From positions 1 through 64,000 of the forward strand of contig JAGVFW010000004.1 of the NCBI GenBank assembly GCA_020057405.1: a DNA stretch of 64,000 nt, written 5' to 3'. The position numbers were made by a program, and so were the translations under genes. Of the stretch, positions 31,097-45,562 are shown in pieces (positions within the stretch are counted from its first letter, which is position 1; each line of letters starts with the position of its first letter). The DNA is from an archaeon. Its GTDB lineage: Archaea; Micrarchaeota; Micrarchaeia; Norongarragalinales; UBA97. The notes under the pieces are model-generated. The model searched no databases and was not told the DNA's origin. It saw only the letters and a program-made list of their open reading frames with translations.

Positions 31097-33310
31097 TTAC
31101 TTGAGTGGGGGCTTGTAGAACCGCATCAGGCTCGCGTTCGTCGTCACGGAAACGCTGGAAAGCGCCATTGCCGCACCCGCAATAGCTGGGTTAAGCATAA
31201 AGCCGGTGAATGAATAGAGCACGCCTGCCGCAATTGGAACGCCGACAAGGTTGTAGGCAAAAGCCCAAAACAGGTTCTCCCGGATTTTGCCCATCGTGTA
31301 GCGGCTCAAGTCGATTGCGGTAATCACGTCACGCAAGTCGTTCTTCACAAGCACGATGTCGCCAGCCTCGATGGCCACGTCGGTGCCGCTGCCAATCGCG
31401 ATGCCCACATCAGCAGCCGCTAGCGCTGGCGCGTCGTTGATGCCGTCGCCAACGAAAGCCACTTTGCGGCCTTCAGCCTGGAGCTTGCGCACTTGCGCCT
31501 CCTTCTGTTCGGGAAGAACTTCGGCCAAAACCTCGTCAATTCCCGCTTGGCCGCCAATCGCTGCTGCAGTGCGCTTATTGTCGCCAGTAATCATGGCCAC
31601 GCGCAATCCCATCTTCTTGAGCTGCGTGACAGCAGCAGGAGTAGTGGACTTTATAGTGTCCGCAACCGCAAGAACTCCCGCAACTTTCCCGCCGACTGCA
31701 AGAAGCACTGCAGTCTTGCCTTGGCGCTCAAGTGAGGCGAGTGAGCGCTCTGCAGCCGCGTCCACGCGGACTTTGCCAAACGCCATCAGCTTGCGCGTGC
31801 CGACAAGCACCCGCCTGCCGGAAACCACGGCCTCGACTCCCTTGCCCGAATGAGACTTGAACTTCGAGACTGCCGCAGGCTTGATTCGTCGCGCCTTGAC
31901 GCCAAAAACAATTGCCTCGGCAACCGGATGTTCGGAGTGCATCTCGGCCCCGGCTGCAATCGACAAGAGCTGGTGTTGCGAAAAGCCGCCAAGCGCAACC
32001 ACATCGGTGAGCTTGGGCTTGCCCTCGGTGAGTGTGCCAGTCTTGTCAAACACCACCGTGTCGATATCGCGAGCCGACTGCAGCGCCTTTGATGTCTTGA
32101 AGAGAATGCCGTGCTCAGCACCAAGGCCTGTTCCCATCACGATTGCGGTTGGCGTTGCGAGGCCAAGGGCGCACGGGCAGGCGATGATGAGGACCGCAAC
32201 CGCTGCGGTAAAAGCAAACGGCAGGGTCGCTCCTGCAACGAAATACCAGTAGACAAACGCGAGGGCAGAAACTAGGGCAACCGCGGGCACAAAATACGCG
32301 CTCACCTTGTCAACGAGCTCCTGGATTGGCGCCTTGCTTGCCTGCGCGTCCTGTACCATCTTAATGATTTGGGCGAGCATGGTCTCGCTGCCAACCTTGG
32401 TTGCCTTAAAGCGCAGAAAACCGTTCTTGTTTATGGTCGCACCGATGACGGTGCCGCCCTTTTTCTTGAGAACAGGCATGCTTTCCCCAGTCACCATCGA
32501 CTCGTCAACCGCGCTCTCGCCATCGACGACGATACCGTCAACCGGAATTTTTTCGCCGGGCTTCACAAGGACAATGTCGCCAACGAGAACCTGCTCGATT
32601 GGCACTTCAACCTCGCGGCCCTTGCGCACAACACGGGCAGTCTTTGCCTGCATGCCAATGAGCTTCTTTATCGCCTCGCTCGTGCGACCGCGGGCGCGCG
32701 CTTCGAGGAGCTTGCCAAGCGCGATGAAGGTTAGAAGGAAGGTGGCGACCTCGTAGTAAAGCGCACCCGGGAAACCAAGCGTGGTTGCCACGCTGAAGGC
32801 AAAGGCGGCGCCAACGCCAATGGCAAGAAGCGAGTCCATCGACGGGCTGCCGACGAGAATCGCCTTCGCGCCGCGCACGAAAATCACGCGGTTGACCCAA
32901 AGCACGGCACTAGCGAGCAGCATCTGAGCGATTCCGGCAGAGGGCATTAGCTCCTCTGGCACGAAGGCCGGAACAATCCCCAGTTCGGACAAGAACATAG
33001 CAAAAAGCGGCAGGCTGAGCGCTAGCGAGAACTTGAAGCGGAAGGCGTAAGACGCGATTTCCTTCTCCCGCGCCTCCTTTTCCGTGTCCGTGCCTACTGG
33101 CCACGGCTCGGCGTCAAAGCCCGCGTCAATGACGGCATTGCGCAACTCGTCGAAGGAAGCAGAGCCTTCAACGTCGGCGCGGTCGCCGGCAACGAGGGCG
33201 CTGGAAACGCCTTTTACTGAGCGCAAGGACCGCTCAATTTTAGCCAAGTCGGCTTTTGCTGAAGCGCCCAGTATGTGTAAAACGAGTTTTCCTGCCATCG
33301 TAATTCTCAC
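31097..33310 (-). CDS. copA: Copper-type P1B ATPase
   Basis: [62 protein letters not shown]. Confidence 0.93.
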
Positions 33311-33513
33311 ACTGCCGTGTCGTAGCCAGCCTTCTTGACTGCCTCGCGTATCTGAGTAGGCGAAGCCGCACGCGGGTCGTAGTCAACAGCCATCTTGCCG
33401 GATGCGAAGCTCACGTCAACCCCGCTAACGCCGGCAACCTTGCCGACAGCCTTCTTAATGGTGGCCGCGCAGCTGGCGCAATCCATTCCGCTTACCTTGA
33501 AATTTGCTTTCAT
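33307..33513 (-). CDS. copZ: HMA copper chaperone
   Basis: [29 protein letters not shown]; start ATG 33513. Confidence 0.9.
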
Positions 33514-33788
33514 TGTCTCAACCCCCAATTGTAAGTAACTGCGATTAGCCAGCCGACGAAACCGCCGACGAGCAAGCCGAGTGCCGCCCCGACAAACAAT
33601 CCGCCAAAACCAAAGGCGGGGCTGCCAAATTGCATCATGCCGTAATACCGCGAACCGAATGCGCCGGCCATCATGCCCGACGCCCCCCATCCGAAAAGCC
33701 CCATGCCCGCGTGCAGCACGACGCCAGTCAAGGCACCTGAAATTGTGGCGGCCTTTTCATTCAATTTTCCGTACATCTTCATTCCCAT
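33510..33788 (-). CDS. Small Met/Gly-rich membrane protein (DUF5676-like C-terminus)
   Basis: MGMKMYGKLNEKAATISGALTGVV...[18 protein letters not shown]; start ATG 33788 proposed. Confidence 0.65.
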   Translation of the reverse strand: MGMKMYGKLNEKAATISGALTGVVLHAGMGLFGWGASGMMAGAFGSRYYGMMQFGSPAFGFGGLFVGAALGLLVGGFVGWLIAVTYNWGLRQ

Positions 33789-33801
33789 CAACCCCAAAAT
33801 T

Positions 33802-34722
33802 TTACGAAGCGCCGGCCCAGGCGAAAGCCGCGCGCGGGCCCCAGACGAGCAGGGCGCCGAAAACCGCGAACACCGCGACGTTCGCTGCAATCGACTTTGC
33901 CAATATCGGCACTGACGAAGGCAACACGCTGCCGCCCTCGCGCAACATCATGTACGAAAGGCCAAGCAGGACGAATATGCACGACGCAAACAGGAAAATC
34001 AGGAATAGCAGGACGTTGTCGTTAAAGAGCATCACCGAAAGCATCGCGCCCATTGTCCCGGACATTATGCCCGCCATCAGGCCTTCAAGGATGCCCATCA
34101 CGCCGTTGCGCGCCCCGGCAATTGCGCCCATGCCCATGCCAATAGCCATGCCGACGATCGAGCCAACGAGCATTCCGTTTGCCGCGCCCGAAAGCGCACC
34201 CGCCAAGAAGCCCGCCATCATTCCTATAGTCATGCCTATCATCATCCCACTCATGCACGAGAAGGGCTGCCTAAACGCGCGGAAGTGGATGAGTGCCGTG
34301 CTGCACGCGACAGTGCCCACCGCGGCGAGTGCCAGCAAGGGCACGAAGCGCGGGGAAACAATCTGCAGCACATAAGTTAAGAGAAACAAGCCAGCGAGCA
34401 TGATAAGAAGGGAAAACATCGACGACTCGGCAATGCGCCGCTCGGCGTCAAAGTCCGTCGAGTTCGACAAGAGCTTCCCCAAGAACGCCAGCGGCCTCGC
34501 CATCACGCCCCGGTTGGTGTCGTTCCCGTCAACGCCGTAACCCGCCTCAATCAAGGCCGCCTTTAGGTCGTCGAGTTGGGCGTCCGAATTGACTTCCACC
34601 ACGAGCCGTCCCATTGAATAGTCGATGTCCTTGACGCTAGCGCCAATTCTCTCGACAACCCGCGAGATGACGCGGGCGCACGAATCGCATTCAAGGCCAG
34701 TAAGCCTGAGTTCATGTTCCAA
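33802..34722 (-). CDS. HMA domain fused to a Met/Gly-rich polytopic membrane protein
   Basis: GLECDSCARVISRVVE (HMA) then CMSGMMIGMTIGMMAGFLAG...GMLVGSIVGMAIGMGMGAIAG. Confidence 0.8.
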   Translation of the reverse strand: MEHELRLTGLECDSCARVISRVVERIGASVKDIDYSMGRLVVEVNSDAQLDDLKAALIEAGYGVDGNDTNRGVMARPLAFLGKLLSNSTDFDAERRIAESSMFSLLIMLAGLFLLTYVLQIVSPRFVPLLALAAVGTVACSTALIHFRAFRQPFSCMSGMMIGMTIGMMAGFLAGALSGAANGMLVGSIVGMAIGMGMGAIAGARNGVMGILEGLMAGIMSGTMGAMLSVMLFNDNVLLFLIFLFASCIFVLLGLSYMMLREGGSVLPSSVPILAKSIAANVAVFAVFGALLVWGPRAAFAWAGAS

Positions 34723-34723
34723 T

Positions 34724-34930
34724 TCAATTCCCCCCGTTTACCTTGTAGCCCTCGGCCTCGATTGCCTTTCGGGCTGATTCAAACTTTGCCTCGTCATGCG
34801 CCTCGGCCTCCACAATCCCCGCGGCATAGTCGGCCCGCACTACTTTTAGCCCGGCGTCCTCGACGGCCATGGTCAAGAGCTTCTCGCAGCTCTTGCAGTG
34901 CATTCCTTCAACGTGAAAAGTTTTTCTCAT
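34724..34930 (-). CDS. HMA heavy-metal-binding protein
   Basis: VEGMHCKSCEKLLTMAVEDAG. Confidence 0.88.
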   Translation of the reverse strand: MRKTFHVEGMHCKSCEKLLTMAVEDAGLKVVRADYAAGIVEAEAHDEAKFESARKAIEAEGYKVNGGN

Positions 34931-35374
34931 TTAAACTGCCTCCAAAGTCTTATGCAAACCCCAGTACACCAGGGCTACCGAAGCGGCAGCCAGCACGGTG
35001 CCGTAAGCGGAAAGGAAGTAAAGCGACTGCGCGCCCACCAGCCACGCGAGAACCGGCGGGCAGTAGGGGCACGCGCTTGCGAGCAAGCCCACCGAACCCC
35101 CCGCGACCCCAGCCGCGCAGGTCTTTGGGGAAACGCGTTTCAGGTAAAGCCACGCTGCCGCGAGCAAGCCGCTGCCTGCCGCTGCCAGCACCATCAAGAC
35201 TGCAGCCACGGGCTCTATCCCAAGGGGGTTGGACTCCATCGTGCCAAGAATGAAGAAGTTGCCAAGCACCGCGTAGGCTGCCGCAAGCACTATGGTCACG
35301 ACCGCGAAGGCTGCCGCCGGCGCCTTGTGGGATAGTATCCTGCGCAGTTTCGCAAAGTCTTTCAAGCAACTCAA
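34931..35374 (-). CDS. Four-TM membrane protein with CPYCPP motif
   Basis: GGSVGLLASACPYCPPVLAWLVGA; position in the copper block. Confidence 0.72.
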   Translation of the reverse strand: MSCLKDFAKLRRILSHKAPAAAFAVVTIVLAAAYAVLGNFFILGTMESNPLGIEPVAAVLMVLAAAGSGLLAAAWLYLKRVSPKTCAAGVAGGSVGLLASACPYCPPVLAWLVGAQSLYFLSAYGTVLAAASVALVYWGLHKTLEAV

Positions 35375-35817
35375 CTCGCCTCAAGCACTCCCCGAAACAT
35401 CCTCATCGAGCAGCTGTATTCATATTTGCCTGGCTTGGGGGTGAATTCCGCCACCTGCTCCTCGCCGTTTCGCGAGACCAGCTGCACGCCGAAATCGCGC
35501 ATGATGAAGGCCCTTCCACAGCCCGCGCGGGGGTCTGCAGAGAAGTGCACCCTCACCGGCTCGTTGGCCCTTACTTTTACAGTAGGCTTGTCGTAAACGC
35601 CGGCGTCAAGCGCGCGCAAGTAAATGTCCTGCACGCCGCTAGAGCCCTGCGGGGTTGGCGTTATGCCCTGCTGTGCAGGCGCTTGGCTGGCGTCTTGAGC
35701 GTAGGTGGGCGCAGCCTTAAACGGCCTGGCACCAGCGGTACCCGCAACCATGAACAAGCCGACTACCACCATTACTCCCATGAGTAGCGTTATGAGCGCA
35801 AGATTGCCTTTCAACAT
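35371..35817 (-). CDS. Exported cupredoxin-like protein
   Basis: Signal/TM N-terminus; VRANEPVRVHFSADPRAGCGRAFIM...FTPKPGKYEYSCSMRMFRGVL (Cys/Met ligand loop); start ATG 35817. Confidence 0.78.
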   Translation of the reverse strand: MLKGNLALITLLMGVMVVVGLFMVAGTAGARPFKAAPTYAQDASQAPAQQGITPTPQGSSGVQDIYLRALDAGVYDKPTVKVRANEPVRVHFSADPRAGCGRAFIMRDFGVQLVSRNGEEQVAEFTPKPGKYEYSCSMRMFRGVLEAS

Positions 35818-35938: not shown

Positions 35939-36430
35939 ATGGCCGGAAACTTTAGCTTGCGGCGGCGCGTGGGCCTAGCTGCGGCAGTGGCAGGCGCCTT
36001 TACGCTGCTGTTTACCGTACTCGTGTTTACCTACAGCTTCCCAGCAAGCACACCCGACTCGCTCAAGGTATTCATCATCTACCACTTCGAGTTCATGATA
36101 GCGATGGTTGGCCTCGGCGTCCTCGCCGGCGCGGCAATACTTTACCTGATGGGCGAGGAAGTCAAGCACCAGCACGAGGAATCAAAACTCAACGCCGAGC
36201 TCGCCCTCTCGCTCCTCCACAGCGACGAGCGCAAGGCAATCAAGCTGCTTTTGGAAAAAGACGGGGTTGCCGGCCAGGCGGAAGTCGCGCGCCTCGACGG
36301 GATGACGCGCCTCAAGGCGCACCGGACCGCCAAGAGCCTCTCCGCCCGCGGCCTCGTATCTCTGGAAAGAAACGGCAAGGCCGTCAACCTCAAGCTCGCC
36401 GACAACGTCCTGCAGGCGCTGGCGAAATAA
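35939..36430 (+). CDS. Membrane-anchored winged-helix transcriptional regulator
   Basis: Two N-terminal TMs followed by LLLEKDGVAGQAEVARLDGMTRLKAHRTAKSLSARGLVSLERNGK. Confidence 0.72.
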   Translation: MAGNFSLRRRVGLAAAVAGAFTLLFTVLVFTYSFPASTPDSLKVFIIYHFEFMIAMVGLGVLAGAAILYLMGEEVKHQHEESKLNAELALSLLHSDERKAIKLLLEKDGVAGQAEVARLDGMTRLKAHRTAKSLSARGLVSLERNGKAVNLKLADNVLQALAK

Positions 36431-36431
36431 G

Positions 36432-36698
36432 TTACTTGCGCGAGAGGTGGTTGTAGATTTTCGCGAACGCTGCGCCGGTGACGAGCCCGAAGGCAACCCA
36501 CGCAACGAGGCCGACCGCGAAGCCGCCGGCCGTGGGTAGTTGCGTCGCAAGCACCACGCCGTGAAACATTCCCCGTCCGAGTGCACTCAAAGTGTCAGGA
36601 AACGCGTAAGCAGCAGCCGAACAAATCGCATACCAACCGCCGAGCACTCCTGCCAATGAAACGCCAGCCGCCTTTGCATCCATTCCAGCCATACTCAA
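36432..36698 (-). CDS. DUF5676-like small membrane protein
   Basis: GMFHGVVL...GLVTGAAFAKIYNHLSRK. Confidence 0.68.
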   Translation of the reverse strand: MSMAGMDAKAAGVSLAGVLGGWYAICSAAAYAFPDTLSALGRGMFHGVVLATQLPTAGGFAVGLVAWVAFGLVTGAAFAKIYNHLSRK

Positions 36699-36802: not shown

Positions 36803-37567
36803 CTATGCCTTGAATTTTGCAGCTGCGCTGAACTTCGCCTTTGCCGAGGCAACGAAGCGGCCGGTGCCTTGCACACGGTCGGCGTAGCCGTCGGCCGCCA
36901 GCTCGTCGCCAGAAAGGTCGTTGAAGAACGACGGCCGGCTGAACGGGAGGAAGAGGCCGTAGAGAACCGACAAGACCTTGAAGCTTGGGCTCTTGCACGA
37001 AAGGTGGTAAAGCTCATGGAGCGCAACCGCCTCTTGCTCTTTGCGCGTGAGGAGCTCAAGGACGCCAACAGACACCACAATGGTTGGAGAAACCGCAGTC
37101 ATTGAATAAGCGACTGGCGCGTGCACTTGAAGGACCATCAGCCGCGGCGCCGGAATGCCTAGTTTGGCTGCCTCGGCGCGAACAAAAGCGGCGAGCGGAT
37201 TGGCGCGGTCAATAGGCGCGCAATTGAGCGTCCGCAAAGTCGGGATTAGCAGGTAATAGAATGTGAAGGCAAGCACTAGAGATACCGGAAACACTAGGAG
37301 GAAAGTTTGGGAAATGGTGACCGCGCACTCAAGCGAGTGGATTGCCGAACAGCTTAGGCTCAAGGCAAGCAAGGTCAGCGGAAAGGCAACTGCAAGCAGG
37401 TTGAGGAACATCAGGAGGCTCTTGCGCCTGAGATTTGCCTCCTTGCGCACCGCCGAGTAGAGCAGCAGGGCAACCATTATTGAAGAAATGAACAGGCCGA
37501 GCTTAAGCGGGTCGGCGACAAAAGCGCTGACGCCATCAAGCACGTGCTCAACCATCAGGTTGTCCAT
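36803..37567 (-). CDS. Membrane zinc metallopeptidase (M48/M56, BlaR1-like)
   Basis: N-terminal TMs; HELYHLS (HExxH); adjacent to a BlaI-like repressor. Confidence 0.82.
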   Translation of the reverse strand: MDNLMVEHVLDGVSAFVADPLKLGLFISSIMVALLLYSAVRKEANLRRKSLLMFLNLLAVAFPLTLLALSLSCSAIHSLECAVTISQTFLLVFPVSLVLAFTFYYLLIPTLRTLNCAPIDRANPLAAFVRAEAAKLGIPAPRLMVLQVHAPVAYSMTAVSPTIVVSVGVLELLTRKEQEAVALHELYHLSCKSPSFKVLSVLYGLFLPFSRPSFFNDLSGDELAADGYADRVQGTGRFVASAKAKFSAAAKFKA

Positions 37568-37579
37568 TTTGGTTTTTCC

Positions 37580-37963
37580 CTATTTATTATTACTGAATCG
37601 CTCGTTAAAATAGCTGACTGCTGTTGCCCCGAACATGGCCACCAGCCTGTCGGCGACAGTCGCCAAGACCTTCTTCTCCAACTCGTTCTTCGAGCCTGCA
37701 GGCGAGTACAAGTAGTATGTGCCACCCCGGCCCGTAAGCGCCCGCCGCGTGACTAGCCCCTTGTCAAAAAGCCGGTCGAGCAGCACTGCTACGCTAGTCA
37801 CCGCCGCCTTTGAGCGCAGCTTCAAGTGCACCTCGCGCACGCGCATTGGCGACTGGCTAGTGCAAAGCACGTCGAGGATTTCGCCCTCAAGCGGGCCGAG
37901 GAAAGAGTCGAAAGACTGCTTGCTACCGCCACGAGCGAGTCTGATGTTGTTCAGCCTTACCAT
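37580..37963 (-). CDS. BlaI/MecI/CopY-family winged-helix repressor
   Basis: FDSFLGPLEGEILDVLCTSQSPMRVREVHLKLRSKAAVTSVAVLLDRLFDKGLVTRR; start ATG 37963. Confidence 0.85.
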   Translation of the reverse strand: MVRLNNIRLARGGSKQSFDSFLGPLEGEILDVLCTSQSPMRVREVHLKLRSKAAVTSVAVLLDRLFDKGLVTRRALTGRGGTYYLYSPAGSKNELEKKVLATVADRLVAMFGATAVSYFNERFSNNK

Positions 37964-38012
37964 AACCATCCAACTCTTACATACACTTCTTGCACACACC
38001 ACTATTAAAGAC

Positions 38013-38059
38013 TTACTGCTTCAGTAAAGCTTATATATTAGCTATTACAAGATATGTAA
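38013..38059. promoter_or_regulatory. Two palindromes flanking a TATA-like box: TTACTG-CTT-CAGTAA and TTACA-AGATA-TGTAA
   Basis: 38013-38027 and 38045-38059, with CTTATATATTAGC between them; divergent blaI-like / 38118 gene promoter. Confidence 0.65.
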
Positions 38060-38117: not shown

Positions 38118-38942
38118 ATGGGTGAATCGGGTTCGCACAATGATGAGGAAAAGACGCACCACGGAGGCGGGCTTCTTAGTTCCAACAAACTGTTTTACGC
38201 ACTCGCAATCGCAGTGTTTGCGGTCCTCGCCTTCAACCAAATACAGCTTTCTTCACTAAATGCCGCGGCTGCTTCACAGGCAATCCTGCTAAGCTCACAG
38301 CAGCAAATCGCGGCAGCGCAGTCCCAGGTGGCGGCACAAGCCCAGCCGGCGGCAGCGCAGGCCCAGGCAGCGGCCGCCCCGGTCCAGGCCGGTAGCACGG
38401 TAAACCTGCAGGAACTCGCAGACAAGGTGATTCCCCAGGGCGTGCCGGCAATCTACGGCACGGAGCTTGGCGTCACATATAGCGACCCCGTAAACAGCAT
38501 GAACACACTTGCTGCCCTCGACGACGGCAAGGGATTGCCTGACACTATCCAGAACCAGCGGTACGTAAGCATCGCATCACAGATGGCCTGCGAATACTGC
38601 TGCGGGGCAAATACGCTTATTGCCGGGGATGGCAGCGCGGCTTGCGGGTGCGCGCACAGCTACGCAATGAGGGGCCTGGCAAAGTACCTTGTTGTGAAGC
38701 ACGGTTCCGAATTCACTGACGAGCAGATTCTCGCGGAGCTGGGCAAGTGGAAGACGCTGTTCTTCCCCAAGCAAATCCTGACGAAAGCCATTGAGTTCTC
38801 TTCGGCTGGCAAGGACATCAGCATCATCGACCTTACCAGCAACGAGTTCCGCGGCTTTACGGCGCCGGCGCAGGCAGCGTCGGGCGGCCAGTCGGCAGTC
38901 GGCAGCATCGCCAACCTGCCAAACATGGTCGGCGGATGCTGA
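38118..38942 (+). CDS. Membrane-anchored Cys-rich exported protein with LPNMVGGC C-terminus
   Basis: Single N-terminal TM; Ala/Gln linker; MACEYCCGANTLIAGDGSAACGCAHSYAMRGLAKYL; ends NLPNMVGGC*; AAGGTG upstream of ATG. Confidence 0.85.
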   Translation: MGESGSHNDEEKTHHGGGLLSSNKLFYALAIAVFAVLAFNQIQLSSLNAAAASQAILLSSQQQIAAAQSQVAAQAQPAAAQAQAAAAPVQAGSTVNLQELADKVIPQGVPAIYGTELGVTYSDPVNSMNTLAALDDGKGLPDTIQNQRYVSIASQMACEYCCGANTLIAGDGSAACGCAHSYAMRGLAKYLVVKHGSEFTDEQILAELGKWKTLFFPKQILTKAIEFSSAGKDISIIDLTSNEFRGFTAPAQAASGGQSAVGSIANLPNMVGGC

Positions 38943-38945
38943 GGG

Positions 38946-39059
38946 ATGCGATGCAAGAAGTGCGGTAAGCAGTTCCTCGCGTGCTGCGGGGACGAAGCCG
39001 GGCAATGCCGCGAGTGCGACCCAACCCGGCGACAAAGTTCAAAAAAATGGGAGGAATGA
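38946..39059 (+). CDS. 37-aa zinc-ribbon-like microprotein
   Basis: MRCKKCGKQFLACCGDEAGQCRECDPTRRQSSKKWEE*; below the ORF-track size cutoff; paralogue of 40784..40912. Confidence 0.75.
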   Translation: MRCKKCGKQFLACCGDEAGQCRECDPTRRQSSKKWEE

Positions 39060-39063
39060 TTGA

Positions 39064-39387
39064 ATGGACAAAGGACTGGTAAACGGAATGCTGGTGCTCT
39101 TGCTGCTCGTAAGCGGCTTTGAGGCCATGGAGCTCAATTCGATTAAGGGAACGCTGTCCACACAACAGACGCAGGCACTACCCTTTGCGCTGGCATCTGC
39201 GCAAAGCGCGCAGTTAGTGCAGGCGGCCAGCTCAAGCGGCGGTGGCGAGACTTACGACCAGATGATGGCGCGCATGCACCCCGAACAGGCCGCACAGCAG
39301 CAGGCCCAGACGGCCCAAGCGGTAGCGGCTTCGGGTGGCGCGGCTAGTGCGCTGAACAACTTGCCCAACATGGTCGGCGGCTGCTAA
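39064..39387 (+). CDS. Small exported/membrane-anchored protein with LPNMVGGC C-terminus
   Basis: N-terminal TM; Gln/Ala-rich; ends ALNNLPNMVGGC*; preceded by GGGAGGAATGATTGA. Confidence 0.85.
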   Translation: MDKGLVNGMLVLLLLVSGFEAMELNSIKGTLSTQQTQALPFALASAQSAQLVQAASSSGGGETYDQMMARMHPEQAAQQQAQTAQAVAASGGAASALNNLPNMVGGC

Positions 39388-39462
39388 AGCCCCGGGGGGG
39401 CCCAATTTCCCTCTTTTTGGGGATTAACGCAAAGAACGAAAAAATTCGAGGTAGTGGAAACT

Positions 39463-40047
39463 ATGAAAATCGCTTTGGTCGCCCTTCTGGGCTTGTTGCT
39501 GGCAATCTCTGGCGCAGCTAGCGCTTACGCCGGCCCGCAGGTGGTGGTTTACAACAACGAGGCCTGCGGCCACTGCCAGCCGTACGTCAACGAGCTTACC
39601 GCCGGCCTCAAGGCAACAGGCTTTGGCGACATCGAAGTGAGGCAGTTCATCAACAACGAGAGCGTGCGCGCCGAGCTCTCCTCGCTGCAGGCCTCGCGGA
39701 AAGTGCCGCTTGAAATGCAGGGCCACCTTGTCGCGTCAGTTGAAGGCGGCAAGTACTTGTTCGAGGGCCACGTGCCGGTCGCACTCGTCACTGACTTCCT
39801 CAAGAACAAGGCCAAGGACTATCCTGGCGGCATTGTCGTAACCCTTGACTCAATGACAAGCGAGGGGCCGTACAAGGTCTTCGACGGCAGGCAAGTCCGC
39901 GAATTTTCTCCCGGCCAGCCCATAGGCTCTTCAGGCGGCCTGCAGGCAGAAGGTTCTGGAATCGGAGACTACGCCCTTCCTTTCCTGATTATCGCGGCGC
40001 CCCTCGCGCTTTTGGCCCTTGCGGCTAACGGTGGTAAAAATGAATAG
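39463..40047 (+). CDS. Exported thioredoxin-like protein with C-terminal TM anchor
   Basis: Signal peptide; VVVYNNEACGHCQPYV; C-terminal ALPFLIIAAPLALLALAANGG. Confidence 0.83.
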   Translation: MKIALVALLGLLLAISGAASAYAGPQVVVYNNEACGHCQPYVNELTAGLKATGFGDIEVRQFINNESVRAELSSLQASRKVPLEMQGHLVASVEGGKYLFEGHVPVALVTDFLKNKAKDYPGGIVVTLDSMTSEGPYKVFDGRQVREFSPGQPIGSSGGLQAEGSGIGDYALPFLIIAAPLALLALAANGGKNE

Positions 40048-40774
40048 GAAAAACTTGGCAATAATTGGCGTGGCCGCGTTTCTTGCGGCTACTATCCTGG
40101 CGTTTTCGGGAAGCCTCCTTGCAACGGTTCTAGTTGCGGGCTTCCTTGACGGCATCCACCCGTGCGGCATTGGCGTGCTGTTGTTCTTCGCTGCCTTCCT
40201 GCTCTCGATAAGGAAAGCGCGGCGCGACATACTGGTTGCCGGAGGCGTTTACATCGCAGGCGTGTTCCTCGCCTACCTGCTCATCGGCCTAAGTATAATG
40301 AAGGCCGCGACTTTCTTCCCTCCAATGTTCATGGGCCAACTTAGCGCGGTTCTCCTAGCGGCATTGGGGTTGCTTACCGCAAGGGATGCCCTCGCCGGCA
40401 CCCAAACGCTCAAACTCCCGTCCTTCTCGCGTCCCTGGATACAGGACCTCATCCAAAAAGCCACGCTACCGGCTGCCCTAGCGGCTGGAGTGGTAGTCGG
40501 GCTCTGCGCGTTTCCGTGCGCAGGCGGGATTTACGTAGCCATAATAGGTCTGCTTGCGTCGCGGGTGGACTTCGCGTCAAGCCTTTCTTACCTAGTCGCT
40601 TACAACCTCGCGTTCGTACTTCCACTGGTCTTCCTCTTGTTGGCCGCAACCAACCGGCGGATGGTGGAAAAACTCGAGGCCGCAGAGAGGGCCAACAGGA
40701 AGACGTACAAGCTTGTCTTCGCGGCCGTGCTGCTAGCGCTGGCCGTGGCAGTTTACCTTGGAACCGTGGGATGA
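40040..40774 (+). CDS. ccdA: CcdA/DsbD-type thiol transporter
   Basis: GFLDGIHPCGIGVLLFF and GLCAFPCAGGIYVAIIGLL; six TMs; overlaps the thioredoxin stop. Confidence 0.87.
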   Translation: MNRKNLAIIGVAAFLAATILAFSGSLLATVLVAGFLDGIHPCGIGVLLFFAAFLLSIRKARRDILVAGGVYIAGVFLAYLLIGLSIMKAATFFPPMFMGQLSAVLLAALGLLTARDALAGTQTLKLPSFSRPWIQDLIQKATLPAALAAGVVVGLCAFPCAGGIYVAIIGLLASRVDFASSLSYLVAYNLAFVLPLVFLLLAATNRRMVEKLEAAERANRKTYKLVFAAVLLALAVAVYLGTVG

Positions 40775-40783
40775 GAAACCCAA

Positions 40784-40912
40784 ATGCCAACCTGCAAATC
40801 GTGCAAAAAATATTACTGGCTCTGCGGAGACTACGAGAACTTGTGCGCGGAATGCATCCGGGCGCGGGTCAAGCGCAAGATCAGCGCAGCTAACGGAGGC
40901 TCACGCGGATGA
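40784..40912 (+). CDS. 42-aa zinc-ribbon-like microprotein
   Basis: MPTCKSCKKYYWLCGDYENLCAECIRARVKRKISAANGGSRG*; ATGA overlap with the next gene. Confidence 0.75.
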   Translation: MPTCKSCKKYYWLCGDYENLCAECIRARVKRKISAANGGSRG

Positions 40913-41499
40913 AGAAAACGCGAGCCCAACAACGTCCCGAGCGCATGAAGCAAGCGAAGGCCAAGCGGCGGCAGGGATGGCTCGAATGGATGGGAATAGC
41001 TCCCAACGCGGCGGCTGCAGCTGGTTTTGCAGGAATGCTTCTAGTGTACTTCGGCACGCTTAGCCTGTTCAACTCGCCCAGCCACGCGCTCGCGCAGTTT
41101 CGTGGCGACTGGTGGTGGGTGCTCGCGTTTGCCGCTGGAATGGCGGGCCAACTGTGGCTAAGCGTGAAAATCCACGCGAGCACGGCGGCCACGGGCGCTT
41201 CGGCCGGCACTTCAACAGGCACGATGATTGCCTGCTGCGCCCACCACATAACTGACTTAGCGCCACTTGCGGGCGCGGCTTTCCTGGCGGGCCTGTTCGA
41301 CAAGTACCAGCCGCTTTTCATCGGCATCGGCCTGCTTTCAAACGCAGTCGGCCTTTCGCTGCTTCTAAGCCACGCGCAAGAACAAGAGCTCAAAGTGCCG
41401 TTCGCCCGCTTGCTTGACTGGACCCGCGCGTGGAAGTTCGAGGCGGCAATAGGGGCGGGCCTGCTGGCAGCCCTGGCGTTCAAGCTTTACCTTGCGTGA
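40909..41499 (+). CDS. Membrane protein with CCAHH motif
   Basis: Multiple TMs; GTSTGTMIACCAHHITDLAPLAGAAFLAG. Confidence 0.8.
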   Translation: MKKTRAQQRPERMKQAKAKRRQGWLEWMGIAPNAAAAAGFAGMLLVYFGTLSLFNSPSHALAQFRGDWWWVLAFAAGMAGQLWLSVKIHASTAATGASAGTSTGTMIACCAHHITDLAPLAGAAFLAGLFDKYQPLFIGIGLLSNAVGLSLLLSHAQEQELKVPFARLLDWTRAWKFEAAIGAGLLAALAFKLYLA

Positions 41500-41532
41500 C
41501 AAAACTTGAAGAGAAAAAAAGAGGTGCGGAAA

Positions 41533-41874
41533 ATGGGTGAAGAACTGATGAAATACGCGATGGTGGCAATCGCCATTGCAACGCTGGCATTCGCAGTGTT
41601 TTCGTTTGGAACGCCTGCGGCGCAGCCTGTCGCAGGACAAGCAAACAACATTGCGCTACAGCAAAAACAGGTCTGGCAAGGAGTGTCGAGCACAAGCGCC
41701 TCTGCGGTCCAGACCCAGGCTTTGGACAATAGCCAATGCGGCGACTTGAACGACGACGCCAACGTCCAGCACTTGGGCCACCACCCTGGCCAATATGCAG
41801 CCTGCCTCAAGCAAGTTGACCCGGCGGTGCTAAAGAAGGCAACTGGCAAGACGCTCGGCCAGCTCATCGGGTAA
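41533..41874 (+). CDS. Small membrane-anchored exported protein
   Basis: N-terminal TM, two Cys, ends TLGQLIG; GAGGTG upstream of ATG 41533. Confidence 0.72.
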   Translation: MGEELMKYAMVAIAIATLAFAVFSFGTPAAQPVAGQANNIALQQKQVWQGVSSTSASAVQTQALDNSQCGDLNDDANVQHLGHHPGQYAACLKQVDPAVLKKATGKTLGQLIG

Positions 41875-41879
41875 GGCAC

Positions 41880-42878
41880 ATGGGTTTCGGCCGCGGCGGC
41901 TTGCCGGCATTCGCGTTTTTCGCAGCACTAGCCGTGCTTGCCGGAGCCGTGGTTTTTGCATTGGCGAGCCTGCAGCAGCAAAAACCCGCGGGTTTCGAGC
42001 AAGCGCAGGCATTGCAGGCCGACATTTCGGCAGGCGATGGGCGCGTCAATACCAAGCTACCAAATGCTTTTAGCGCGACGCCAAGGCCAGCCTCGTCCGC
42101 GGAACCTGCCGGGAAGTGGGATGGCCTTTACGAGGAAATCGCCCCGGCGGCGGGAGTGACGCTGCCGGCAAAGTGGGGCGACGCCGGCCCCAAGCTAGTC
42201 TCAAGCGGGGCGTTAAACTACTCGTTGTTCGCGGCCTCGATGAAGCGAAGCGGCCGGCCGCTCTTGAAGGAGCAGGAAAAAATACTGCTTGAAGGAAGCG
42301 AAGACAACATTACAATTAGCCGCGAAAATCGCCTCTTTGTCTTAAACGTCTTGTGGGCCCTTGGCTTGGCGAACAAGAATCCGGTCCTCACCCACGGGCC
42401 GCTCTCGAACACGCCTTCAGTGGCAATAGGGCAGTTCGCAAGCACTGGCGGCTGGAGCCTGGGCTCCCGCGATTCAGTCGAGCTTGTTTCGTCTTCAGGC
42501 ATCGTCAGCCTCACTCAAGAACAGCAGAAACTGGTTGAGCGCGTGGCGAAGGAAACCTATCGGCCTTGCTGCGACAATCCGACCTTCTTTCCCGACTGCA
42601 ACCACGGCATGGCCGCCCTTGGGCTTGCGGAACTGCTTGCTTCCCAAAACGCTTCAGAGGAACAAATTCTCGCAGCAGTGCTTTACGCCAACAGCTACTG
42701 GTTCCCGCAGGCTTACGCGGACATTGCCGAGCACTTCAAGGAAAATGGGATTGCGTGGAAGGACGTCGGGCCGGGAGTTGCGCTGGCCGCGAATTACTCA
42801 AGCGCAAGCGGCCATTCGCGCATACTCAGGCAACTAAAAGAAAAGCCCGCCTTGACGCCAGAGGCAAGCGGGTGCTGA
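41880..42878 (+). CDS. Membrane-anchored Cys/His-domain protein, C-terminal Cys
   Basis: N-terminal TM; YRPCCDNPTFFPDCNHGMAALGLAELL...EEQILAAV; ends EASGC*. Confidence 0.82.
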   Translation: MGFGRGGLPAFAFFAALAVLAGAVVFALASLQQQKPAGFEQAQALQADISAGDGRVNTKLPNAFSATPRPASSAEPAGKWDGLYEEIAPAAGVTLPAKWGDAGPKLVSSGALNYSLFAASMKRSGRPLLKEQEKILLEGSEDNITISRENRLFVLNVLWALGLANKNPVLTHGPLSNTPSVAIGQFASTGGWSLGSRDSVELVSSSGIVSLTQEQQKLVERVAKETYRPCCDNPTFFPDCNHGMAALGLAELLASQNASEEQILAAVLYANSYWFPQAYADIAEHFKENGIAWKDVGPGVALAANYSSASGHSRILRQLKEKPALTPEASGC

Positions 42879-42906
42879 CGGTAAATTGCATTGGAGGGGG
42901 AATTCA

Positions 42907-43116
42907 GTGGTTTTGGAAAAACTTTGGGAATCAGTGAAGAAGAACCATTTTGCGCAAATGGCAATCTGCTGCGCGCTGCCGATAGTGGTAATCTTCGCGC
43001 TTGAGGCGATGGGCTATACCGGCGGCTGGGTTTTTGCGATTGCCATAGCCGTTTGCGTGGGCTCGCACATCGTCATGTCTTACTTTGCTTCAAAGGAGGG
43101 GAAAACATGCCACTAG
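42907..43116 (+). CDS. Small membrane protein, DUF2933-like
   Basis: HFAQMAICCALPIVVIFALEAMGYTGG...GSHIVMSYFASKEGKTCH*; GTG start after GGAGGGGG. Confidence 0.7.
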   Translation: MVLEKLWESVKKNHFAQMAICCALPIVVIFALEAMGYTGGWVFAIAIAVCVGSHIVMSYFASKEGKTCH

Positions 43117-43232
43117 AACTTGGGAAGTATCGGCCGTGGGTTGAAAACGGCTTCTGGATACTGGTGTTCGCAGTCGTCTACATTGCCATGCAAAAGGTTA
43201 TGCACCCGGGCTGGACGCTCTTAGGGTACTAG
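43107..43232 (+). CDS. 41-aa single-TM microprotein
   Basis: MPLELGKYRPWVENGFWILVFAVVYIAMQKVMHPGWTLLGY*; preceded by GGAGGGGAAAAC. Confidence 0.65.
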   Translation: MPLELGKYRPWVENGFWILVFAVVYIAMQKVMHPGWTLLGY

Positions 43233-43248
43233 AAGGGGAGGTGGGAAA

Positions 43249-43290
43249 ATGCCTGAAAAGAAATCTAGGAAAAAACACGGTTGCTGCTAG
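43249..43290 (+). CDS. Possible 13-aa Cys-Cys-terminated micropeptide
   Basis: MPEKKSRKKHGCC*; strong GGGGAGGTGGGAAA upstream. Confidence 0.4.
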   Translation: MPEKKSRKKHGCC

Positions 43291-43428: not shown

Positions 43429-44562
43429 GTGCGAGGTAAACGAGGCTTGGAGGAGAAACGCAACCCTACAGCGGTAATCATCGGCGCGAGCTTTGCGGGC
43501 ATCAACGCCGCCCTCACGCTAAAGCGCCTCGAGCCCGGCTTTGAAGTCATCGTGCTTGACAAGGACGACTGCTTCACCATGATGCCGGCCCTATACGAAA
43601 CGGCGGCCCGCGGCGAGGGCAACGCCGAAATCTCGGTTTCCCTTGCCTCGGTTGCCAAAAAACACGGCTTCACTTTCTTTCACGACGAGGCGGTTTTCGT
43701 CGATAGGAAAAAGCGGCGGGTGAACACGCGCAACGGAGAGAAAATTTCGTTTGACTACCTCGTGATTGCCATTGGCGCCCGGACCAACTACTATGCCGTC
43801 GAGGGCGTCGAGAAGCACGCGCTCAACCTCAAGCGCAGGCAAGACGGCGAGAAAATCAGCGAGCGGCTCAGGCTCGGCCTGCTTAGGGGAAAGCCGCTCA
43901 AAATTGTCGTGTGCGGTGGCGGCATGAGCGGCATCCAGTTTACAAGCGAGCTTGCCGACTGGCTCAAGGGCCAGGGAGGCGGGCACGAGATTCGGCTCTT
44001 CCACACCGCCCCGCGCCTGGCGTCCGAACTGCCAGAGGAATTCAGCGAACTGGCGAGAAAATCGCTTGAGCGCAAGAGCGTGAAAGTGATGCTTAACACG
44101 CCCGTGTCGCGGGTGATGAAAAAAGGAGTGGAGACCACCGCCGGGGCAAAGCACGACGCGGACCTGGTGCTTTGGTGCGGGGGGAACAAGCCGCCAGAGG
44201 CGCTTGCCAAGACGGGCTTGCCACTCGAGAACGGGTACGTGGCGACAAACGAGTTTCTTCAAAGCCCTGCTGAAGAGCGAATTTTCGCAGCTGGGGACTG
44301 CACGGCGGTTAAGACGCATGACGGGAAGCCCGCTTACCAGACTGTTTGGAACGCCGTGCTTGAAGGCAGGACGGCGGCGCAAAACATTTCCCGCCACTTT
44401 AGGGGCAGGCCACTTATACCCTACTCGGCATCGAACGTGCCCATAGTGTTCACGCTGGGGCGCAACTACGGCGTCCTCTACTACAAGGGCATCATGCTTA
44501 CGGGCCGCCTGGTCGCCTGGCTAAAGCGGTTCGTCGAGCGCACGTACCTAAACGCGCTTTGA
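43429..44562 (+). CDS. NADH dehydrogenase-like FAD/NAD(P) oxidoreductase (NDH-2 type)
   Basis: AVIIGASFAGINAALTLK, VVCGGGMSGIQFTSELA, ERIFAAGDCTA. Confidence 0.87.
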   Translation: MRGKRGLEEKRNPTAVIIGASFAGINAALTLKRLEPGFEVIVLDKDDCFTMMPALYETAARGEGNAEISVSLASVAKKHGFTFFHDEAVFVDRKKRRVNTRNGEKISFDYLVIAIGARTNYYAVEGVEKHALNLKRRQDGEKISERLRLGLLRGKPLKIVVCGGGMSGIQFTSELADWLKGQGGGHEIRLFHTAPRLASELPEEFSELARKSLERKSVKVMLNTPVSRVMKKGVETTAGAKHDADLVLWCGGNKPPEALAKTGLPLENGYVATNEFLQSPAEERIFAAGDCTAVKTHDGKPAYQTVWNAVLEGRTAAQNISRHFRGRPLIPYSASNVPIVFTLGRNYGVLYYKGIMLTGRLVAWLKRFVERTYLNAL

Positions 44563-44608
44563 GTCTGCTGCGCAAAATGTAATTAAGAGCGCGCTCGTGA
44601 TATTTTCC

Positions 44609-45562
44609 ATGGACTGGTTTACCCTCCTGCTCTCGGTTGCGGGCCTGGCGTTCTTTGAAATCATACTTAGCGTGGACAATGCCGTAATCAACGCGAGTGT
44701 GCTAAAGGGCATGTCCGATTGGGCGCGCCGGTGGTTTTTGGTTTGGGGCATTTTCATAGCCGTTTTCGTCGTGCGCGGCGTGCTGCCCTGGGCAATAGTG
44801 TTCTTCTCAAACCCGTCACTTGGCATCATAGGCTCGCTTACCGCGACTTTTAGCAGCGACCCGCAAGTCATCCACCAAATCGAGTCAAGCAAGCCCGCGC
44901 TCTTGAGCTTCTCGGGCATCTTCCTCGTCTTCCTTTTCTTCCACTGGCTCTTCATGGAAACAAAGAACTTCGGCCTGCGCGGCGAAGAGTTCATCCAGCG
45001 CCACGGCCTGTGGTTCTACACCATAGCGTCATTCATCTTGCTCGGCTACACTTGGTTTGCCATCCAAATCAATCCCATGATGGCATTTGGAGCGGTTGCC
45101 GGCTCGACGACTTTCTTCATCATGCACGGCTTCAAGCAAAACGCCGAAGCCAAGGAACACGAGCTGATGGAAGGCGGGACACGACTAAGCGACTGGAGCA
45201 AGCTTCTCTACCTCGAAGTCATCGACGCGAGCTTCTCAATTGACGGGGTGCTTGGCGCCTTCGCATTCACCTTCTCGATTCCCCTAATCATAGTCGGGAG
45301 CGGCATCGGAGCCATTGCCGTGCGCGAGTTGACCATCCACAACATAGACCGCGTGTCAAAATACAAGTACCTCAAAAACGGCGCGATGTACAGCGTCTTT
45401 ATCTTGGGCATCATCATGCTAGCAAACGCTTTTGGCGCCCATGTCCCCGAATGGCAGACGGCAGTAGTGCCGTTTGCCTGCATCGGCTACTTCTACTGGC
45501 GGTCAAAGAAAGAGATGGAATCCGAGCCGGATGAGAAAAAAGTAAGGACGGAAAAAGGCTAA
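44609..45562 (+). CDS. TerC/DUF475-family integral membrane protein
   Basis: FFEIILSVDNAVINASVLKGM, LEVIDASFSIDGVLGAFAF. Confidence 0.88.
   Translation: MDWFTLLLSVAGLAFFEIILSVDNAVINASVLKGMSDWARRWFLVWGIFIAVFVVRGVLPWAIVFFSNPSLGIIGSLTATFSSDPQVIHQIESSKPALLSFSGIFLVFLFFHWLFMETKNFGLRGEEFIQRHGLWFYTIASFILLGYTWFAIQINPMMAFGAVAGSTTFFIMHGFKQNAEAKEHELMEGGTRLSDWSKLLYLEVIDASFSIDGVLGAFAFTFSIPLIIVGSGIGAIAVRELTIHNIDRVSKYKYLKNGAMYSVFILGIIMLANAFGAHVPEWQTAVVPFACIGYFYWRSKKEMESEPDEKKVRTEKG

Follow-up and report, generated by a model that had tools for sequence, protein, structure and literature searches.

The 64,000-nucleotide stretch analysed here (the window) belongs to contig JAGVFW010000004.1 of a 1.22 Mb archaeal metagenome-assembled genome, that of a micrarchaeon. 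At positions 38118-43290 it contains 12 closely packed open reading frames (ORFs), o1 to o12, all on the + strand, and this operon probably encodes a copper-induced, membrane-anchored extracytoplasmic relay that handles thiols and Cu(I) in DPANN archaea. Support comes from the gene set and its synteny, the copper context, invariant residues, the relations of o4 to DUF411 and of o1 to o9, an o4-o5 fusion and repeated operator-like sites.

An earlier note on this DNA, made from the letters alone, had described at least 11 same-strand, tightly spaced ORFs, mostly preceded by GGAGG/GAGGTG. The intergenic gaps from o1 to o12 range from -10 to +33 bases, with 75 bp ahead of o4 as the sole exception, and purine-rich sites of the GGAGG/GAGGTG type precede most starts. 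The cysteine motifs listed in that note (CEYCCG, CGCAH, MVGGC, CGHC, CCAHH, CC...CNH, SGC and ICCA...KTCH) were all recovered in the ORFs to which they had been assigned; the motif C...HLGHHPxxYxxC of o8 had not been singled out there. The operon comprises:

38118..38942, + strand: o1, core membrane-anchored protein with CEYCCG/CGCxH motifs and an MVGGC tail (found in 14/60 relatives and in at least 80 DPANN species)
38946..39059, + strand: o2, zinc-ribbon-like CxxC microprotein (similar ORF in most order-keeping relatives)
39064..39387, + strand: o3, transmembrane (TM) helix, low-complexity linker and MVGGC tail
39463..40047, + strand: o4, thioredoxin-fold protein with CGHC, exported and anchored at its C-terminus, relative of DUF411/CopG by profile similarity
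40040..40774, + strand: o5, probable CcdA/DsbD-type membrane protein (weak ArsG/SfLAP match; fusion homologue)
40784..40912, + strand: o6, second zinc-ribbon-like microprotein (similar ORFs in loci L015 and L024)
40909..41499, + strand: o7, CCAHH membrane protein (C109, C110 and H112 invariant in 30 sequences)
41533..41874, + strand: o8, TM-anchored exported protein with a C...HxxHHPxxxxxC site (C69, H80, H83, H84, P85 and C91 invariant in 16 sequences)
41880..42878, + strand: o9, anchored RPCCxNPxxFPDCNHG protein with SGC end, its C-terminal domain homologous to o1 by hhalign
42907..43116, + strand: o10, DUF2933-like membrane protein with ICCA...KTCH (PF11666 family matches)
43107..43232, + strand: o11, single-TM protein of 41 amino acids (conserved in L015-L017 and L024)
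43249..43290, + strand: o12, lysine-rich microprotein of 13 amino acids, MPEKKSRKKHGCC, with HGCC (enriched CC-ending short ORFs)

Conservation of the locus

Co-occurrence of these genes elsewhere, which the earlier note had proposed to check, is borne out by 10 relatives that keep most of o1, o3, o4, o5, o7, o8 and o10 beside a repressor-protease pair (the same neighbourhoods frequently include genes for DUF5676, HMA, cupredoxin and CopA as well), and by the surroundings of 80 o1 loci. The latter derive from a scan of 85,488 species, which gave 194 o1 relatives; the best 80 of the 194, many of them on short contigs, were used. Nearly all of these 80 are labelled DPANN (a few labels are vague or doubtful) and the groups represented are Micrarchaeota, Woesearchaeota, Aenigmatarchaeota, Diapherotrites, Nanoarchaeota, Pacearchaeota and Nanohaloarchaea. 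The neighbours of o1 in the 80 loci are o3 (55-71 loci), the DUF411/o4 superfamily (~40), CopA (38), o7 (32), DUF5676 (27) and cupredoxin (19-24). The system had been called undescribed, and searches of an open-access library (subscription papers and preprints lay outside them) gave no mention of the cluster or of MVGGC as a tail of this kind.

The proposed electron-transfer pair o4 and o5

The pairing that had been proposed, of a thioredoxin-fold protein outside the membrane with a CcdA-type one, is that of o4 and o5. For o4, which had been read as a thioredoxin, the CGHC thioredoxin fold stands; it is not a plain thioredoxin and instead a relative of DUF411/CopG, with E=7.8e-5 to the DUF411 Pfam model (below the curated cut-off), E=0.0013 to PDB 6wis, and a profile value of 1e-10 and hhalign 99% to canonical DUF411. 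In other DPANN groups, canonical DUF411 genes lie near o1.

The o5 protein possesses HPC and FPC motifs. In loci L106, L064 and L055, an o5 homologue and an o4-like domain make up one CopG-like-CcdA protein, and the L106 fusion reaches E=7.1e-6 to DsbD_TM (25.9 bits, cut-off 27.1). Close o4 orthologues (E<=1e-70) and close o5 orthologues (E<= ~1e-53) are present in exactly the 11/61 genomes with the operon, a co-occurrence with a nominal Fisher value of ~1e-9 that ignores relatedness. Because of this fusion and the exact co-occurrence, electron transfer is suggested to be integral to the system.

o1, o3 and the MVGGC tail

Seven residues of o1 (C158, C161, C162, C176, C178, H180 and C274) are invariant in 72 sequences. 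No known family matched o1 in Pfam, NCBIfam, PDB (by sequence) or plasmids, and a Foldseek search against viral structures gave no significant match. Otherwise unrelated, o1 and o3 have the MVGGC tail in common: in the 80 loci, 67 o1 and 53 o3 homologues end in MVGGC, a further 6 and 7, respectively, in QVGGC. The o3 family ends in VGGC in 60/61 members, with the tail cysteine as the sole cysteine in 47.

The MVGGC tail is system-specific and nearly confined to the locus, since nearly all matches of the corresponding DNA pattern are ends of o1 or o3 or lie in o1 loci. MVGGC followed by a stop occurs 19 times in the genome of the window and its relatives, 18 times as an o1 or o3 end and once, by sequence reading, overlapping the beginning of a gene for a ribosomal protein; the reversed control has no occurrence in these genomes. 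In 12 more distant genomes, 19/20 matches fall inside the coordinate ranges of o1 loci. The AlphaFold2 model of o1 has a core with a predicted local distance difference test (pLDDT) value of ~97 and a tail (261-274, pLDDT ~81-85) more ordered than the linker (251-260, pLDDT ~61), and in this model the tail could possibly dock on the core. Locus L027 encodes an o1 joined to a membrane domain with CPxC.

The domain shared by o1 and o9

The cores of o1 and o9 align in hhalign with 96.4% and a score of 56.6 that 0/300 shuffles reach (the best of them scores 24.8); by this profile comparison both belong to one homologous domain family, and for this reason o1 and o9 may be enzymes of the relay rather than its clients. 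A rhodanese domain (Pfam Rhodanese, 4.5e-12) is fused to an o9 domain at L092:14394-15581, a hint that o9 proteins may be involved in sulfur or persulfide chemistry.

Copper island and regulation

The interval marked by the earlier note missed the divergent half of a larger island. Neighbouring genes for a cupredoxin, HMA proteins and CopA agree with its suggestion of a copper link. With these divergent genes, and those for a DUF5676 protein and a repressor-protease pair, the operon forms one of the two halves of a copper island:

31097..35817, - strand: divergent copper unit (Pfam), with the seven genes that follow
31097-33298, - strand: CopA-type ATPase (Pfam; CPC, YN(x4)P and M(x2)SS)
33307-33513, - strand: HMA protein (Pfam)
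33510-33782, - strand: Gly/Met-rich membrane protein
33802-34722, - strand: HMA-membrane protein (Pfam)
34724-34930, - strand: HMA protein (Pfam)
34931-35365, - strand: x349, CPYCPP membrane protein
35371-35817, - strand: cupredoxin (Pfam)
36432..36698, - strand: DUF5676 (PF18926) protein with two TM segments (Pfam E=1.8e-15, above cut-off)
36803..37567, - strand: M48/HtpX-like membrane metalloprotease with HELYH, a BlaR1-like partner without sensor domain (HtpX E=3.3e-8)
37580..37969, - strand: BlaI-type winged-helix repressor, Penicillinase_R (PF03965 E=2.2e-11, 44.6 bits, cut-off 22.6)
38013..38027, no strand: predicted operator 1, TTACTGCTTCAGTAA, TTAC-N7-GTAA
38045..38059, no strand: predicted operator 2, TTACAAGATATGTAA, TTAC-N7-GTAA

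The three motifs of the CopA-type ATPase are ones that we take to be associated with P1B-1 Cu+ ATPases. The cupredoxin of the window lacks the second cysteine of the CuA motif. A cupredoxin near o1 at L065:14154-14561 has a CuA-type CxxxCxxxH motif and is possibly the 'nosZ-like' protein of DPANN archaea, for which CuA-type proteins have been described (PMC10936187); a place in a copper island may suit the 'nosZ-like' gene better than the reading as an N2O reductase.

A Penicillinase_R winged helix-turn-helix (HTH) with an adjoining M48/M56-type protease places the repressor-protease pair in the BlaI/MecI type. The protease is present in the 10 order-keeping relatives, and HExxH is kept in 18/19 members of its family. 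A C-terminal CxC is a feature of CopY (PMC7253601); none was found in the repressor, and 19/19 homologues have no cysteine in their last 30 amino acids. It is therefore more probable that induction is proteolytic, of the BlaI kind and through the M48 protein, than that the repressor senses metal directly.

The pattern TTAC-N7-GTAA occurs in 12/13 divergent spacers between repressor and o1, and both of its sites in the 64 kb window lie in this spacer. In genome G029, three of its four sites precede the units o1, o7-o11 and DUF5676-cupredoxin-HMA-CopA; in G018, 4/6 sites are within the island, and sites also stand ahead of o9 and of an x335 homologue. Use of the pattern as a marker of a genome-wide regulon was rejected, as whole genomes contain no excess of it relative to the reversed control; its informative part is the placement in the spacers and ahead of island units. 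The conserved operator-like site thus placed appears to link the island units, and the repressor would act there.

A TM-anchored HTH protein (DUF7343-like) is encoded at 35939-36430 of the window and in 50 o1 loci. It usually lies directly upstream of o1 where the repressor-protease pair is absent, an apparent swap of regulators: among the 80 loci, o1 has either the pair nearby (18 loci) or the TM-HTH protein directly upstream (37 loci), never both.

The o12 microprotein

The HGCC peptide of the earlier note corresponds to a conserved ORF. ORFs of 6-24 amino acids that are preceded by a ribosome-binding site and end in CC number 17 on the operon strand of o1 loci, with 1.1 expected (~15-fold), and 0 on the opposite strand; CC is the most enriched ending of short ORFs, at a nominal p of 8e-15 that ignores relatedness. 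The codons of o12 change synonymously and its flanks do not align. Relatives read MGKGKSKGCC in several Woesearchaeota and resemble MxxKKxKKxGGCC in Micrarchaeota; lysine-rich ...GCC ORFs of 10-14 amino acids are located at L040:13136 and 15098, L045:15527, L056:16541, L074:4781 and L093:14155. Judged by these sequences, o12 is a conserved microprotein, unusually short for a conserved ORF. A role as leader peptide of one gene is less likely because its position differs among loci (before DUF5676, before CopA, or between o1 and o3).

Other operon members and recurrent neighbours

The o7 protein is homologous to x349 (hhalign 94%). Among 13 comparators, MerT and MerC come first for o7/x349, with low probabilities of 4-54%, and o7 was not accepted as MerT on this weak similarity. 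Some Woesearchaeota homologues of o7 (L089:9250-10101, L080:8347-9246 and L107:8395-8805) possess a C-terminal THS...GHH domain (weak DUF5643), which also occurs as a stand-alone gene near o1. The DUF2933 likeness claimed for o10 holds at family level, where 8/16 members match PF11666 (best 7.2e-7) and the copy in the window is itself below; the Cys-His end is always kept (C68 and H69 invariant). The flavin adenine dinucleotide oxidoreductase and TerC genes downstream (43447-45562) are not counted with the operon, because they have no matches in the loci of relatives.

An HCPLCTAG membrane protein (L082:3041-3574 and 45 other loci) is encoded near o1 in 46/80 DPANN loci; the window lacks it, as do all ten of the closest Micrarchaeota loci (L028-L037). 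A small helical protein with EWCISKHLLAASMRLMEVG (L095:7342-7845 and 36 other loci) adjoins o1 in loci of the Woesearchaeota type. Further DPANN neighbours, named by sequence reading, are YHS/TRASH-like small proteins and a PadR-TRASH-like regulator.

Proposed mechanism and alternatives

The direction of electron flow, the binding of Cu(I), the function of the tail, the action of the repressor at its sites and the induction by copper are predicted from sequence as follows. The CcdA-type o5 would take up reducing equivalents in the cytoplasm and deliver them to o4, a CGHC protein that would in turn hold the o1 and o9 cysteines in the reduced state. At their CxxCC...CxCxH or CC...CNH sites, o1 and o9 would bind Cu(I), exchange disulfides, or both, with the common MVGGC cysteine of o3 and of the o1 tail as a mobile thiol ligand. 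Further membrane-bound or exported Cys/His sites would be provided by o7, o8 and o10, along the path that joins the outer face with the cupredoxin, the HMA proteins and CopA. The BlaI-type repressor and the M48 protease would switch the units on at the TTAC-N7-GTAA sites. A more specific version, tentative and rather doubtful, has the MVGGC tail of o1 docking on its own CxxCC/CxCxH site and o3 giving the tail in trans, a DPANN-specific Cu(I)/thiol relay with swappable ligands, in which the lysine-rich ...GCC microprotein of 10-14 amino acids would be a gene-encoded cytoplasmic Cu(I) chelator of cells whose genomes are tiny.

Several results weigh against the relay as proposed. The CxCC copper-cluster motif of CopG is not found in the o4 family, where 10/10 aligned members have CGHC, CNHC or CSHC, and for this reason o4 is not classed as CopG. 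Many Woesearchaeota o1 loci are without a close o5 relative, so the relay there needs a distant CcdA or differs. The copper assignment rests on neighbour genes, which leaves silver or mercury as alternative metals. For the o1/o9 domain, the top PDB fold match (2hl7) is weak in Foldseek (E=1.4, prob 0.23), the hhalign probabilities to CcmH are low (7-20%), and the model of o9 itself gave no CcmH match.

In an alternative centred on copper storage or sequestration with support of efflux, o1, o3, o8, o9, o10 and o12 bind Cu(I) through Cys, His and Met residues, either transferring it to CopA or exporting it, and o4 and o5 merely repair oxidised thiols. The invariant Cys/His sets of o1, o7, o8, o9 and o10, the terminal or near-terminal cysteines of five products, the lone tail cysteine of most o3 proteins and the CopA and HMA neighbours all suit it; however, integral electron transfer is suggested by the fusion of o4 with o5 and by the presence of both in exactly the genomes with the operon, and we regard storage as unlikely. 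An assembly line that loads copper into the island cupredoxin (CuA-type and nosZ-like in some DPANN) would account for the cupredoxins near o1, the CuA-type motif in L065 and the published CuA-type DPANN proteins (PMC10936187). Yet most o1 loci have no cupredoxin within the stretch examined (many stretches being short) and the cupredoxin of the window is short of the second CuA cysteine; this explanation is distinctly improbable.

The least probable explanation by far, a displaced cytochrome c maturation (Ccm) or Dsb system, draws on a CcdA protein with an anchored thioredoxin-fold protein, as in the CcmG/CcdA arrangement, and on a weak resemblance of o1 and o9 to CcmH in topology and profile. 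Against a set of 13 CcmH/NrfF sequences, the profile scores of o1/o9 exceed 300/300 shuffles, and the CxxC, a helix and S/T-D-x-x-I line up; of 93 decoys that are real proteins, one equals the score of o1 and none that of o9. The LRCxxC motif of CcmH is found neither in o1 ([SA]C[EF][YF]CCG) nor in o9 (RPCC), and the CcmH-likeness is a weak lead. The earlier note had asked whether the genes all match a characterised cytochrome c maturation or Dsb system, and this does not hold: members of the CcmC/CcmF/CcsA family were detected in 0/14 genomes with o1 (controls exceeded the cut-off in 8/14), and PF03918 has no match in the genome of the window. The copper-induced thiol/Cu(I) relay is the reading retained for the comparison below.

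Comparison with known systems

The DPANN archaea rank with the least understood lineages, and the relay would give a testable function to protein families widespread in them. The near-exclusive MVGGC tail and the conserved microprotein of 10-14 residues are unusual, specific and easily tested, and a CcmH-like fold, if true, would possibly be used outside heme chemistry.

The CcmH/NrfF-CcmG-CcdA branch (PMC3884852) has partners alike in kind, and the cores of o1 and o9 are weakly similar to the three-helix domain of CcmH; the locus differs in the CxCxH and MVGGC motifs of o1/o9 in place of LRCxxC, in having no heme lyase and in its copper neighbourhood. With CopG/CutG (DUF411, PDB 6wis; precedent in PMC7558416 and PMC8456105), o4 has the profile, the EGHVP motif and the copper neighbourhood in common, but possesses CGHC/CNHC/CSHC for CxCC, QGH for SCH, a C-terminal TM anchor and a CcdA partner or fusion. 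The regulatory pair resembles BlaI-BlaR1/CopY in its Penicillinase_R protein with a metalloprotease and in the inverted TTAC/GTAA, similar to TACA/TGTA; unlike CopY, the repressor is without CxC, the protease lacks a sensor domain, and the operator reads TACA-N5-TGTA here, whereas that of CopY is TACA-N2-TGTA. Like MerT/MerC, o7 and x349 carry a cysteine pair (CC or CPxC) within a membrane segment, but o7 has a CCAHH motif and no mercury genes are seen in the island.

The nearest functional analogue would be ScsB-ScsC (PMC8900818). In the Scs system of enterobacteria and Caulobacter, the DsbD-type ScsB keeps the thioredoxin-fold, Cu(I)-binding ScsC reduced and serves copper tolerance (PMC8900818). 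Compared by architecture and literature, both systems would combine a DsbD-type membrane protein with an extracytoplasmic thioredoxin-fold protein; the archaeal one differs in its small CcdA-type o5 instead of a three-domain ScsB, its DUF411-related o4 instead of ScsC, and the additional o1, o3 and o9 families with their MVGGC tails. By this analogy the operon would work like known copper-stress thiol relays but is built from new families, and is possibly the archaeal counterpart of the bacterial copper-tolerance thiol relays.

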